From IMG/VR virus record IMGVR_UViG_3300008120_001620, positions 1-24,800 of that record: DNA of 24,800 bases. One strand, given 5' to 3'. This DNA comes from a virus. Every line of letters begins with the position of its first letter. Within the stretch, counting starts at the first letter, position 1. The notes beneath the pieces are model-generated. The model searched no databases, was not told the origin of the DNA, and worked only from the letters and a program-made list of their open reading frames with translations. The position numbers and the translations under genes were made by a program. Positions 13,113-24,800 of this stretch are shown here, piece after piece.

Positions 13113-13439
13113 TCAAATCTCGCAAATCCACTGTTTAGGACGGAAACCTAATTGTTTCGCCCTACGTTGCCAACCTTGTCGATGGCTAGAGAAAGTTACA
13201 TATTTTGCATTAGCTTGACTTGCCAAGCCTTTTATGTATTTTAGCCCATCTTCAACCATTTGATAATCATTTTCTAACGTCCAAGCTGCCCAAACGTGTA
13301 GATGTAGTCCAGATGGCTGCAATATGAAGAAGCCACCGAACCTCTGCTCCTTCAAAACTACCCATAGAAGTGATCTATTAGAGATTAAATCTGCATAGAC
13401 ATCTTCTACTATCCAATCCTCTGGGCTATACCCTTTAAT
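13113..13439 (-). CDS. GNAT-like fold protein with apparent ATT start
   Basis: The frame is open from a TGA just upstream of 13439 and encodes 108 residues if initiated at the ATT at 13437-13439, giving (M)KGYSPEDWIVEDVYADL then SLLWVVLKE, GGFFILQ, LHVWAAW and GLKYIKGLAS, and finally HRQGWQRRAKQLGF. This is the layout of small GNAT-acetyltransferase-like proteins in phage structural clusters, and the N-terminal part belongs to the fold. The only standard start is a TTG at 13355, which would remove 28 conserved-looking residues. The ATT overlaps the previous stop as ATTAA, the same geometry as the coupled starts elsewhere here. A +1 frameshift from the upstream gene or a sequence error remain alternatives. 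Acetyl-CoA binding is not evident. Confidence 0.6.
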   Translation of the reverse strand: MKGYSPEDWIVEDVYADLISNRSLLWVVLKEQRFGGFFILQPSGLHLHVWAAWTLENDYQMVEDGLKYIKGLASQANAKYVTFSSHRQGWQRRAKQLGFRPKQWICEI

Positions 13440-14229
13440 TCACTATGTAGCCGTAAGTTTTATCTGCTGTATTGTTAGACCAATGTGTCAAAGTTGCACT
13501 CCCTTGAGTTTGTGAGGAAACGTAAACGTTACTTGTCGCTGATGGAGCTATGTATTGCATCGTAGCTATCGCACTAGGAATAGACGGTCTTGTAGGACTC
13601 GTGCTAGTACCGTAATGCTCGATGGATACTCCAATATCAGAAACACGCCACATTATCTCAACATAATCATTGGCTTGCAATTCCAAAAAGAAATTAAGTG
13701 CTGCTATTAAATGACTAGGATCGCCTGAGCTTTTTCTAGCTGGCATACTAAACCTGCTATTTGAGCCGTCAACATTCGTTCCGTTCTTCATAAACCAAAT
13801 ATCTACGTCTTGTGAATCGTTAGTAGTATTTTTATATTGAATAGAAAATTGAATGTTATACACGCCATAATTTCTGACGTTCATTCTTGAACTATTCGAT
13901 AGATATACTCCGTTAGAGTAATCAGTAGTATTTAACGTTATAGCGTAAGCAGTTGTCGTATTAGCAGCAGACTGATCTGTAGTGTCCTGAAACGCACCAT
14001 AGGGCGCAGAATCAGCTTCCGCAGCATTACTTATAGGAACCAAGAATATCAAGCTCTCGTTACCTATACGGCTGTCGTATATAGTCGTTGTGGTCGCATT
14101 ACCTGTGGCTAAAGTGACCTTGCCAGTGTTATTCGTCTTGCCGTCCATAATCCCACGAACGACTTCAGCAACCTGTCGCTGATCTCCGCCAAAAGGAGGT
14201 AACGTCTGAAACTGGACTGTTCTCGTCAT
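13435..14229 (-). CDS. Tail structural protein with C-terminal beta (jelly-roll-like) domain
   Basis: A 264-residue protein whose start overlaps the end of the propeller protein gene by 4 bases. The N-terminal section contains VAEVVRGIMDGKTNNTG and then 'KVTLATGNATTTTIYDSRIG...LIFLVPISNAAEAD', a block repeatedly found in phage tail proteins. From about residue 80 the sequence is beta-rich (VYLSNSSRMNVRNYGVYNIQF, VDIWFMKNGT, YVEIMWRVSD), like the jelly-roll domains of fibres and spikes. It may be a fibre or neck appendage attached to the tail stabilisation protein. No enzymatic motif is visible. Confidence 0.72.
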   Translation of the reverse strand: MTRTVQFQTLPPFGGDQRQVAEVVRGIMDGKTNNTGKVTLATGNATTTTIYDSRIGNESLIFLVPISNAAEADSAPYGAFQDTTDQSAANTTTAYAITLNTTDYSNGVYLSNSSRMNVRNYGVYNIQFSIQYKNTTNDSQDVDIWFMKNGTNVDGSNSRFSMPARKSSGDPSHLIAALNFFLELQANDYVEIMWRVSDIGVSIEHYGTSTSPTRPSIPSAIATMQYIAPSATSNVYVSSQTQGSATLTHWSNNTADKTYGYIVN

Positions 14230-15647
14230 CGAGTACCCTGACCTGCTATGTCTATCTCAACCGCTACAGCAGTTTTCCAGTTACCACTAGGACTAGTTTT
14301 AACCCTGTGATACCTACCTGCCGAACGCAGCCCACAGCGACCCTCAGAATCGGCTACAGAGGCATCTCCGAACGTAATGGCATCAGACAATAGCTCACGA
14401 CTTGCGACCGCTACAGAGCCGCTACCTTGATCCACAATCGGTCTGCCTAAAGTAATGACAGAATGACCTACATCTATATCGCCTGACGTTAAAGCAGCCT
14501 GTTTATACTGACCGCTAAAGGTAACGATATTAGGGCCTCTCGTAGCAGACAATAGCAATAGACCACCAACCCACTGACGATCATCCAAAGAGATGCCTAG
14601 TGAGTCTATGCTTGCGCTAAATACGTCCAAACCTTCTAGCGTTACAGATGGCGTTAAAGCAAACGATACGCTGTCAGCAGTAGTCTCTGCATACGACCAT
14701 TTATTTAGCGAGATGTTATAAATCAGCAGTAAATTGTCACCATTCTGTGCAGGGAACAGCCAAGTAATCAGGCGTTTCTCTGTATCTATGGCAGATGACA
14801 TTCCTAACTTAATTGCCGTTAGATTAGCGTTATCAAAGAACCAGCGATCTATTTTTTCTGTACCGATTCCTTTAGTTGTCTGACCATCACACACGTAAAA
14901 ACCATCGTCTGCTAGGAAATATGTTAATCCTGCAAAGTTAATGATTGATCCGGCAGAAATACAGCCTAAAGTGCGGTTAATAGCGTCAAACTGGAAGAAA
15001 TACGGACTACCTGCATACGTCATACGGTAGATAGCACGCTCTAAGAACACTAATCCGTACTCACCACCAGCTAAACCAGTAATATCGCCACCGTCAGGTA
15101 TGACTTGAGAGTCAGATTGACTAGCAAGACCAGGAGTCCAGTCTGTTTCATCATTAATATCAGACCAGTAAACCTTATTTTCTTCGCCAACTACGTTAGC
15201 AGCGACTACAAAGTCCTTAACTACCGTCACATACTTAGCTTCAGGAGCAGCAGCAGCCAAATCTGTAGCGTAAGTAGATACATTTAGCGTGTATTGCTGT
15301 AATTTGCTGTCACCGTTAGCCATAATCATCTTATCGCCATACTGAACAGCATCCCAATACTCAATAGTTCCGTAACCAGTGGTGGTTAATGGAGCCATCG
15401 CACGAGTACCAGGAGTAAACTTGTACAGATTACTAGCAGAAGCACCAAATAATGATACCGTTCCTGCTGTTTTACCTGCAAAACAAGTCAATAAATCAGC
15501 GTTAGCATCGTCAGAATACTCAACCTCATCAAGAATTGGAGCGTATCCATTAGTAACTGGATAACAGTTGACCGCATCCGTTAAAGCACCTGTAACTCCA
15601 GGCTGATCTGGTAGCCATTCACCAAATATTATTCGTTGTTTAGCCAT
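14226..15647 (-). CDS. Packaged DNA stabilisation / tail hub protein (P22 gp10-like propeller)
   Basis: A 473-residue protein from the ATG at 15647, which overlaps the preceding stop (TAATG) and has AAGG 6 bases upstream. An in-frame TTG at 15662 is less likely. It opens with IIFGEWLPDQPG...AVNCYPVTNGYAPI, and blade-like repeats follow: LFGASASNLYKF, GDKMIMANGDSKLQQY, DFVVAANVVGEENKVYWSDI, GLVFLERAIYRMTY, TYFLADDGFYVCDG. This is the pattern of the P22 gp10-type tail accessory protein that closes the portal channel after packaging. The last 100 residues (GRPIVDQGSGSVAVASREL) form a separate beta domain. Its neighbours, an adaptor and tail proteins, agree with this role. Confidence 0.82.
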   Translation of the reverse strand: MAKQRIIFGEWLPDQPGVTGALTDAVNCYPVTNGYAPILDEVEYSDDANADLLTCFAGKTAGTVSLFGASASNLYKFTPGTRAMAPLTTTGYGTIEYWDAVQYGDKMIMANGDSKLQQYTLNVSTYATDLAAAAPEAKYVTVVKDFVVAANVVGEENKVYWSDINDETDWTPGLASQSDSQVIPDGGDITGLAGGEYGLVFLERAIYRMTYAGSPYFFQFDAINRTLGCISAGSIINFAGLTYFLADDGFYVCDGQTTKGIGTEKIDRWFFDNANLTAIKLGMSSAIDTEKRLITWLFPAQNGDNLLLIYNISLNKWSYAETTADSVSFALTPSVTLEGLDVFSASIDSLGISLDDRQWVGGLLLLSATRGPNIVTFSGQYKQAALTSGDIDVGHSVITLGRPIVDQGSGSVAVASRELLSDAITFGDASVADSEGRCGLRSAGRYHRVKTSPSGNWKTAVAVEIDIAGQGTR

Positions 15648-21402: not shown

Positions 21403-21493
21403 CGGACTACAAAATCTTCCATCTTTTTGCGTCAATGAGCTTCTGGTTAGTAAGCCCTTTCTTGAAGTATGCGAGCTGCCCAATCTGCTTTAC

Positions 21494-23587
21494 TCATTGG
21501 ACTAAACCACCTAATTCTTTAATCGCTTTTAGAACAATCTCAGCTTGCTTCTGACGCATCTGCTCGTCTGCCATATCCATCGTTAAGATTGCCTGTAACT
21601 GCTGAACAGCTAACTGAGCTTCTTTAATCTTAATGTCAGCCTGTTGCTGTTGGTTCTTCATAGCCATCTCTAAGCCCTTTTGGGTATATTGGGCTTCGAG
21701 TTCCTGCTGCTTTAACTTTAGCTTCTCCGAGTCAATCTGCGACTTCGCAGCGATCTTCTCTCGTTCAACGTTCGCAAGCATTTGAGCAACCTCTGCCTGT
21801 GCATCGGGAGATGGAGGTTGAGGCTGTGCAAGAGCAGCATCTTGTTCAGGAGTAATCTCGTTAAGAAATGCGTTTGCATCTTTAAATCCTGCTGACTCGA
21901 TAAACTTTGCTAACGTGGTGCGATACTGCCCTACCGATACTAGCGGATTAGATGGGCCGAACTGCTGCAATATCTGTTCTTGTTTAGCCAGAATCATTTG
22001 CAACATTGCCAGCTTCTGATCTCTGTCACCAGAACCAAGACCTACGTTAATGCTAATGTCGTATTCATTCGCCCAAGTTCTAGGATCGTATTGAACATAC
22101 TTGCCACGCATACGGACTAGCTTTGCCTTGTCCTGATACTTGCCCAATAGATGCAAGATACCTCTGAACAGAGACTTAACGCCAGTATCAGCGAACACAC
22201 GAGCGATCAACTCTAACTTACCGCTATTAGACTTCATCATAGCCGCTACAGCAGTAGCAGTTACGTTATTGAGTACGTCTGGATCAAGACCTGCGTTAGC
22301 GTCTGATACGCCTGTACGCTTTGCTGCTACACCATCCAGATACTCAAACATTGGGAACGCCTGACCAGTTACGCTAGGCACTTGCATTGGGATCAGAGCA
22401 TTAGGGTTCTTTACTCGGATAATGCCACCAGGAGTAGCGTTAAGCATATCGTCAAGGTTTACCTGACCATCAACCACGCCAACACGAGCATTGTTCGTTA
22501 GATACAAGTTATCCAAAGTCTGACGCATTAACGTTGACTTGATTAACTGAATGTCCATCGTGCGATCAGCTAATGACTGACCAAAGAACTTATGTGGAAT
22601 TGGTATCGGACAGATTGAATGGAACGGGATAACGTCAGTTTCCTCGTCATCCAGAATCTCAGAGCCACAGTAAACAATCCTGCGTAACTCAGCGATACCG
22701 TCCTCGTCCTCGTCAATACGTATATAGCACTCGTATACCTCAACAGTCTGCATCGAGAAGTCTAAGCTAGGAGCTGAATCAGGCTGCTCGTCTTGGTTAA
22801 ATCGTGCGATACGCTCAGGACTGTAGGTTAGATCGTCATACGTTGGCAGACTGTCAACTACGTCTTTATCGTAACCCATAGCGATAAGATCACTACGAGG
22901 CATCAAACGTCTGTGAGCTACGAACGGAGAATCATCAATAGTCTTAGCAGCCTTAGAGATCAAGAACTCCTCTGGCGGTACATTCTCAATCTTTACCTGA
23001 CCTGACTTCTTAACCTTTTTTACCGTTACAGAATAAGACGGAGCCATAATCGGCATACCCATCTCGTCAACTCCTGCCTCTACCATCTCTACCTTTTGGC
23101 GCACTACTTCCATCGTCTCGTCAGATAGCAATAAGGCGAGTTCTTCTTCTGTTAGGTTCTTGTACTTTTCTTTGACTACATCTTCTTGAGAATCCCAGTA
23201 AGACTTAACCACGCCTGTCTTTTGCAGGAGCGCATCCTTAAACCAGTTATGCAGAATCAGCAGACCATCATTCTCACGATAGAACACCCAGTTACAGTAT
23301 TCAGTAGCTTGCTTGGCTGATTCCTCGTCATTCGGACTCTTAGGTTCAAAGTAAACAATGTCCTCTGTTGTCGTAAAGACACGCAGAAGCTGTGGCAATG
23401 CGCCATCAATAGCTTCAGCTACTTCGCCTGTAACGATCTGTGAGCGACCTTCAACCTCGTTACCGTAAGGTTCACGTAAGTAATACTGTAATGCTCTAGT
23501 GCGTTCGTCAGTAGTTTCAGAGTCGATAAAGCCGATTGCGTTCTCAATCTCGTTCTCTAAAATACCTTTTACTTGTCCTGAATCCAT
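21494..23587 (-). CDS. Portal protein (P22-like)
   Basis: A 697-residue protein from ATG with AGGG 7 bases upstream. The N-terminal part has RTRALQYYLREPYGNEVEGR and SQIVTGEVAEAIDGALPQL, then YFEPKSPNDEESAKQATEY and the wing region with LMPRSDLIAMGYDKDVVD. The centre has FFGQSLADRTMDIQLIKSTL, VDGQVNLDDMLNATPGGI and VSDANAGLDPDVLNNVTATA, all hallmarks of P22-type portals. Residues 590-697 are a Gln/Lys/Glu coiled coil that could form the C-terminal barrel. The length is close to the 725 residues of P22 portal. It forms the dodecameric DNA channel to which the terminase docks. It follows the broken terminase gene by 29 bases. Confidence 0.93.
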   Translation of the reverse strand: MDSGQVKGILENEIENAIGFIDSETTDERTRALQYYLREPYGNEVEGRSQIVTGEVAEAIDGALPQLLRVFTTTEDIVYFEPKSPNDEESAKQATEYCNWVFYRENDGLLILHNWFKDALLQKTGVVKSYWDSQEDVVKEKYKNLTEEELALLLSDETMEVVRQKVEMVEAGVDEMGMPIMAPSYSVTVKKVKKSGQVKIENVPPEEFLISKAAKTIDDSPFVAHRRLMPRSDLIAMGYDKDVVDSLPTYDDLTYSPERIARFNQDEQPDSAPSLDFSMQTVEVYECYIRIDEDEDGIAELRRIVYCGSEILDDEETDVIPFHSICPIPIPHKFFGQSLADRTMDIQLIKSTLMRQTLDNLYLTNNARVGVVDGQVNLDDMLNATPGGIIRVKNPNALIPMQVPSVTGQAFPMFEYLDGVAAKRTGVSDANAGLDPDVLNNVTATAVAAMMKSNSGKLELIARVFADTGVKSLFRGILHLLGKYQDKAKLVRMRGKYVQYDPRTWANEYDISINVGLGSGDRDQKLAMLQMILAKQEQILQQFGPSNPLVSVGQYRTTLAKFIESAGFKDANAFLNEITPEQDAALAQPQPPSPDAQAEVAQMLANVEREKIAAKSQIDSEKLKLKQQELEAQYTQKGLEMAMKNQQQQADIKIKEAQLAVQQLQAILTMDMADEQMRQKQAEIVLKAIKELGGLVQ

Positions 23588-23616
23588 AGCTAAACCCTAT
23601 GCGGATATTTTGCTTA

Positions 23617-24135
23617 TTATACAACCCATTTAGTATTTATTGGGATATTTGATGACCATGAATCGTCTGATTCGTCAAGTGTTATCGCTAAATACCTGAA
23701 ACTATCTGATGCGTGAGATGCCCAGTCATGAAGCGGTTTCTCGTAATAGACGTTCTGCTTCTCGTTATATTCCCTACGATAGTTACGTAAAGCATTAACG
23801 CCCTGCTTAGTCTTATCCTTGTCAAACCAACAACGTGGTAGCAACCTACGCACTGCCTGTATGCCGTCAGCCACAGATAATCTAGGAGCTACGGTAATCT
23901 CTAGTCCTGCTTCTTGGAGGACTTCCTTGCGACTCTTTCCTGTCCCCATCTCACGGACTTCAACGTCATGTGGAAGGTATTGGTCGAAACGCTCATATCT
24001 ATTTTCTTTGAGCCAATTGACATACCAATCAAGCCCGACCCCGTGGTTTTCCACGAAATCAATGAGCCTGACTTCCTTGCCAACCAATTGAGCCACCCAC
24101 ATACTTATCCTCGCCCATCTCAGCACGAGCATCAT
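23617..24135 (-). CDS. Large terminase, C-terminal nuclease fragment
   Basis: This frame codes for 172 residues, but only the part from about 24099 down (WVAQLVGKEVRLIDFVENHG) matches terminase nuclease. The first 12 residues are an out-of-frame read of the ATPase half. LPHDVEVREMGTGKSRKEVL carries one catalytic Asp (PHD), and the final block HDWASHASDSFRYLAI carries the late Asp of the RNase H-like site (DSFRYL). The segment with the first catalytic Asp (usually a WDLG-type motif) is absent, so the nuclease site is incomplete. The stop is a TAA-TAA pair. The ATG at 24102 could start translation, but no ribosome site supports it. The frame is best seen as the broken-off end of the terminase. 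Confidence 0.8.
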   Translation of the reverse strand: MMLVLRWARISMWVAQLVGKEVRLIDFVENHGVGLDWYVNWLKENRYERFDQYLPHDVEVREMGTGKSRKEVLQEAGLEITVAPRLSVADGIQAVRRLLPRCWFDKDKTKQGVNALRNYRREYNEKQNVYYEKPLHDWASHASDSFRYLAITLDESDDSWSSNIPINTKWVV

Positions 24136-24712
24136 TCAATTCTTTCTCGCTAAGTACGCCTGTCTGGCTTGCTTTGAACTCTAGTAAAGCCCAACCTTCT
24201 GTTTCTTCAGCTCGATCTCTGAAGTCTGCAAAGTGGTTTCTTCCCTTAGGTGTGCCAATAAACAAGCACCAACCTAGTCTATCCGCTAAAGCTGGACGTA
24301 TTACTTCGTTCCAGATTTTTGGGTTTTGATCCCCAACCTCGTCAAGCACCACCCCATCGTAATACTGACCACGTAAAGAATCGGGATTGTCAGAACCGAA
24401 AAGGCTAATGCGCCTACCCCAAAAATCCACCCTAAGCTCCGAAATATTAGCAGTAGCACCCAATGGACGAGTAAATTCAAGTAGATAGTCCCACGCAACA
24501 CGCTTTGACTGAGCGTAAGTAGGAGCAATATAAGCAAATCTCGGATTAGGTTTATCACATTGAATCGCAGCCTTTATAAGATGGTTGATGGCGGCTACAG
24601 ACTTCCCCATGCGTCTATGGGCAACTACGACTGTAAAGCGATGGTTGTCAATGGCATCGTGAATCTTGATCTGCTGATCACGAGGCTTGTACGGAATGAC
24701 TATTTCTGCCAT
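24059..24712 (-). CDS. Large terminase, N-terminal ATPase fragment (frame broken)
   Basis: The gene starts at ATG 24712, overlapping the end of the small terminase gene. The ATPase of the DNA-packaging motor is well kept: VVAHRRMGKS (Walker A, residues 29-38), an Arg-rich PTYAQSKRVAWDYLL region, Walker B GVVLDE at 120-125 with E125 catalytic, and coupling motif GTPKGRN at 153-159. After residue 204 (GEDKY) the frame runs into 13 unrelated residues and a stop. The nuclease domain continues in another frame from 24099. Residues 1-204 plus about 160 from the other fragment leave a gap of roughly 50-70 residues relative to related terminases. An internal deletion or an assembly fault is likely. 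Confidence 0.85.
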   Translation of the reverse strand: MAEIVIPYKPRDQQIKIHDAIDNHRFTVVVAHRRMGKSVAAINHLIKAAIQCDKPNPRFAYIAPTYAQSKRVAWDYLLEFTRPLGATANISELRVDFWGRRISLFGSDNPDSLRGQYYDGVVLDEVGDQNPKIWNEVIRPALADRLGWCLFIGTPKGRNHFADFRDRAEETEGWALLEFKASQTGVLSEKELNDARAEMGEDKYVGGSIGWQGSQAH

Positions 24713-24800
24713 GTGACTTGATGTATCTGCGCTCCACCGTCTGCGCCTGTTATCTCTTGCTTCTGCGTTTCAGCCCACCGCATCTGCGCTTTAGTCCACC
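24700..24800 (-). CDS. Small terminase subunit, C-terminal end (partial)
   Basis: The last 32 codons of a gene that runs off the window edge, ending in TAG, overlap the start of the large terminase by 13 bases. The visible end reads MRWAETQKQEITGADGGAQI and then HQVTWQK. A Glu-Ile-Thr-Gly-x-Asp-Gly-Gly block followed by a short strand is the usual C-terminus of phage small terminase subunits (pattern from memory), and the position directly before the ATPase is standard. The DNA-recognition part lies outside the window. Confidence 0.72.
   Translation of the reverse strand, partial: WTKAQMRWAETQKQEITGADGGAQIHQVTWQK

Follow-up and report, generated by a model that had tools for sequence, protein, structure and literature searches.

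The virus record IMGVR_UViG_3300008120_001620, of which we analysed positions 1 to 24,800 (this whole stretch of 24,800 bp is called the window here), presents a large terminase gene that is read in two different frames. The question is whether this phage packages its DNA with an unusually built motor, whether it is a defective variant, or whether the record itself is faulty. The features at the locus are the following:

24059..24712, minus strand: ORF of the terminase ATPase half (phrog_2, terminase large subunit), 217 aa, made up of the real residues 1-204 and 13 out-of-frame residues past the false join
23617..24099, minus strand: terminase nuclease half, in a frame different from that of the ATPase half and without its first ~55 residues
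24101..24102, no strand: junction 1, 164 bp absent within the terminase gene; 0 bp homology; both flanks are 100% identical in contig L088, which has the segment

On the minus strand, the ATPase ORF extends from 24712 to 24059 and the nuclease half ends at 23617, both frames being open across 24059-24135. The ATPase half of the window matches phrog_2 with E 4.5e-25, and its ATPase motifs are legible (Walker-like AHRRMGKS, and LDEVGD); GTPKG could also be read directly.

Relatives were fetched using the terminase nuclease half as query. Among them was L088 (IMGVR_UViG_3300008450_005268), a public IMG/VR contig of 4,072 bp, which matches the window over 699, 2,642 and 107 bp (3,448 bp in total) at 100% identity and with 0 mismatches. 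Between these identical blocks it holds segments of 164 and 140 bp, and its terminase is intact, comprising 419 aa with a WDLG motif. L088 being identical to the window, its intact terminase shows that a normal gene occurs in this very strain. At junction 1, the left match to L088 ends at 24102 and the right match starts at 24101. The 164 bp absent here equal 2 modulo 3, which explains the change of frame at 24102/24101, and the overlap of the two ORFs across 24059-24135 is only apparent, being a consequence of this join.

The lost part amounts to ~55 residues and includes the stretch KSYVAWDLGMGDSTC with the conserved WDLG motif. This motif likely carries the first metal-binding Asp of the nuclease, an assignment made by motif position rather than from a structure. 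In the G20c terminase nuclease, three metal-binding Asp residues (D294, D347 and D429) are indispensable for cutting (PMC5389553). As recorded, the window copy lacks an uninterrupted frame that includes the first nuclease Asp, as 164 bp are absent and the frame is shifted. The original prediction, which had described a terminase without its ATPase-nuclease link, split across two frames and short of 50-70 residues including the first catalytic Asp, is thus borne out as a description of the record, the Asp by motif. Its suggestion that the short words TATG and GTGG mediated a deletion had to be discarded: these words do not flank the lost segment, and at the true boundaries, as seen in L088, 0 bp of sequence are shared.

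An intact gene is the rule in this phage group. A full-length terminase frame was present in 134 of 152 relative loci, corresponding to 95 distinct DNA sequences, and all of these (95/95) contain WDLG; the remaining loci are cut by contig ends, with the exception of L014 and L096 (see below). In close relatives the terminase is one gene of 419 aa. The intact 419-aa protein of relative L002, for example, spans the ATPase half and the RNase H-like half and matches the PDB terminase 4zni (E 4e-12). Matches of the large terminase to Pfam Terminase_6N and Terminase_6C are weak, that of L002 to Terminase_6C (E 0.011) lying under the cut-off. The intact terminase of the strain studied here has an ATPase domain with Walker motifs. 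It is the same in kind as the phage large terminases (TerL, phrog_2) of the relatives, whereas the window copy differs from them by an artefactual loss of 164 bp. In the real phage, the large terminase is an ordinary single chain of 419 aa with an ATPase and a probable RNase H-like nuclease.

The late block had been thought intact apart from the terminase. This did not hold: alignment of the whole window to longer relatives revealed four clean losses, of 164, 140, 79 and 96 bp, the three further ones at 21460/21459, 13441/13440 and 8575/8574. Same-strain contigs near junctions 3 and 4 were found with window-specific 24-mers. The additional joins and the gene models they affect are:

21459..21460, no strand: junction 2, 140 bp absent within a small gene that follows the portal gene; 0 bp homology; both flanks are 100% identical in L088, which has the segment
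21447..21497, minus strand: remnant of the small gene cut by junction 2, 16 codons plus stop in the window versus at least 76 codons in L088
13440..13441, no strand: junction 3, 79 bp absent; 0 bp homology; L172 is identical on both sides and has the segment
8574..8575, no strand: junction 4, 96 bp including a stop codon absent, fusing two genes; 1 bp homology; both flanks are 100% identical in L173, which has the segment
7999..10353, minus strand: false fusion ORF, 784 aa; the Met of the second gene is residue 594, and the PHROG matches break at 584/600

At junction 3, the end of one gene is altered and the start of the next is lost (remnant 13113-13355). The shortened, start-less and fused genes that the window shows at junctions 2-4 are wrong gene models. 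Homology at joins 1 to 4 is 0, 0, 0 and 1 bp. L172 (dataset 3300008266) agrees with the window over ~5.1 kb with 0 mismatches and one 22-bp gap, L173 (dataset 3300008450) over ~12.4 kb with 0 mismatches, and together they hold the 79-bp and 96-bp segments. Every lost segment (4/4) is thus present in same-strain contigs (L088, L172 and L173), between flanks identical to the window, with 0 mismatches over ~21 kb in total.

The joins coincide with places where assemblies break. L173, 17,269 bp long, has one of its ends precisely on window base 13440, immediately past junction 3, and contigs of other assemblies start or stop within ~170 bp of all four joins: L110, L109 and L154 end 20-108 bp past junction 1; L155, L014, L088, L169 and L157 end, and L156 starts, 40-166 bp past junction 2; L172 ends 109 bp past junction 3 and L167 130 bp past junction 4. 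All four joins are at the margin of conserved blocks common to several strains, and such blocks are where assembly graphs branch. The 100 bp on the contig-end side of joins 1-4 are 98.2, 99.6, 98.2 and 98.2% conserved among relatives, compared with 89.4% on average; four positions drawn at random attain this flank conservation with P ~5e-5, a figure to be read with the reservations that the test was chosen post hoc and that coverage is thin near junction 4. We also considered that the lost segments themselves might be unusually conserved, and rejected this: their own conservation is moderate (54th-86th percentile), and it is the one-sided flank that is extreme.

An assembly error is strongly supported because identical contigs hold the missing segment, because the record has three other blunt losses, and because the joins lie at break points. 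We are accordingly almost certain that the split terminase is an assembly artefact that arose when contigs were joined with the short stretch separating them left out. The losses, the blunt joins, the intact same-strain copies and the clustering of contig ends at the joins were observed directly. As to the process, while the 24.8-kb record was being made, neighbouring contigs would have been abutted at four points in DNA that is nearly identical in several related strains, with the loss of the 79-164 bp lying between their ends. We infer that scaffold gaps were most likely closed without their Ns, or that a gap-closing step was faulty. The phage itself, a tailed one encoding terminase, portal, scaffolding and major head proteins, is ordinary; it is the record that is defective.

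A variant of this explanation places the artefact at an earlier step: chimeric library molecules, produced by template switching during amplification, could have made the joins, which the assembler then followed. Joins of low homology and private losses would be expected in this case as well, but four such events in a single contig, each at a break point shared by strains and one exactly at the contig end of another assembly, fit contig joining better, and we regard chimeric molecules as rather improbable.

The original prediction had named an assembly error or a minority deletion as the most likely causes; the former has gained in strength from the intact L088, the four blunt losses and the break points. 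A real 164-bp deletion would define a minority or defective lineage unable to cut its DNA and dependent on helper phages. The two terminase halves are otherwise clean, and De Bruijn contigs normally need reads that span the join, so that a few deletion-bearing molecules could exist. Against this stand the three other blunt losses of this record, the lack of substitutions over ~21 kb relative to intact same-strain contigs, and the position of the joins at contig break points. Moreover, a search for the junction 1 sequence pattern across IMG/VR found it in no other contig; an identical split in a related phage, which would have spoken against an assembly error, was thus not encountered there. 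A real deletion is therefore very unlikely. Slighter still is the chance that part of the phage population in the sample of the window really has all four short deletions and lives on as a terminase-defective parasite of the intact sister strain.

The idea of an unusual motor, with ATPase and nuclease as two proteins or joined by frameshifting and devoid of the usual catalytic Asp, could draw on the two open frames across 24059-24135 and on packaging ATPases with a vestigial nuclease such as that of phi29 (PMC7672431), but it is refuted for this strain by the intact 419-aa gene in L088 and further opposed by the 95 distinct full-length genes of relatives, all of them intact, and by the missing segment giving no match elsewhere in the window record (a search run without a positive control), leaving it a negligible probability. 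A programmed frameshift or split genes were rejected on account of the intact gene in the same strain, and introns and inteins, the leads offered by the literature on naturally split terminases, were set aside for the same reason. A naturally split terminase is further opposed by the lack of the junction in any other IMG/VR contig and by the 95/95 intact distinct full-length genes. No unusual phage feature is present in these data, and the split terminase is not a real one.

Comparable faults were seen in other contigs of the group. L014 (1-5193) and L096 (1-6045) come from two datasets and represent phages that are nearly identical to each other, and each has private losses of its own in the terminase gene or beside it: L014 lacks ~278 bp in the terminase, extending into the portal gene, plus 99 bp, and L096 lacks 113 bp in the terminase plus 329 bp. 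L014 is intact where L096 is broken, and vice versa. As these losses are not shared, short private losses recur as a fault in contigs of this phage group. Near window position 15615, by a gene start, 22 bp of the window are absent from the otherwise identical L172, which is another small private loss, in L172. Contig IMGVR_UViG_3300028025_001340 (37.5 kb; L154 and L155) has a copy of the portal gene at each end; the two copies differ slightly, being 98 and 99% identical to the window at the amino-acid level, as if two strains had been joined around a circular or permuted genome.

The comparison removes a false lead, namely a packaging motor without nuclease. Similar multi-strain viral contigs probably also carry short blunt losses, which leave genes broken, truncated or fused and are not marked by any N, and comparison with same-strain contigs is a cheap way to detect them. 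False contig structures are known to arise when phage populations made up of several strains are assembled (PMC11727651, PMC5253355); the passages of these papers that describe chimeric or misassembled contigs in viromes with co-occurring strains do not include the short blunt-loss pattern of the window.

Among named phages, Methylophilales phage Venkman EXVC282S (MT375522) and the Manatee Spring Caudoviricetes MW202481 are distant from the window phage, their terminase and portal genes aligning at 67-69% DNA identity, and both are annotated with an ordinary terminase. The relatives are mosaic: several (e.g. L160 and L167) are 68-70% identical to the window in the ATPase half (24101-24800) and ~95% identical in the nuclease half and portal (21460-24101). 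Judged from these mosaic relatives, the terminase gene seems to have a natural recombination boundary in its conserved middle part.
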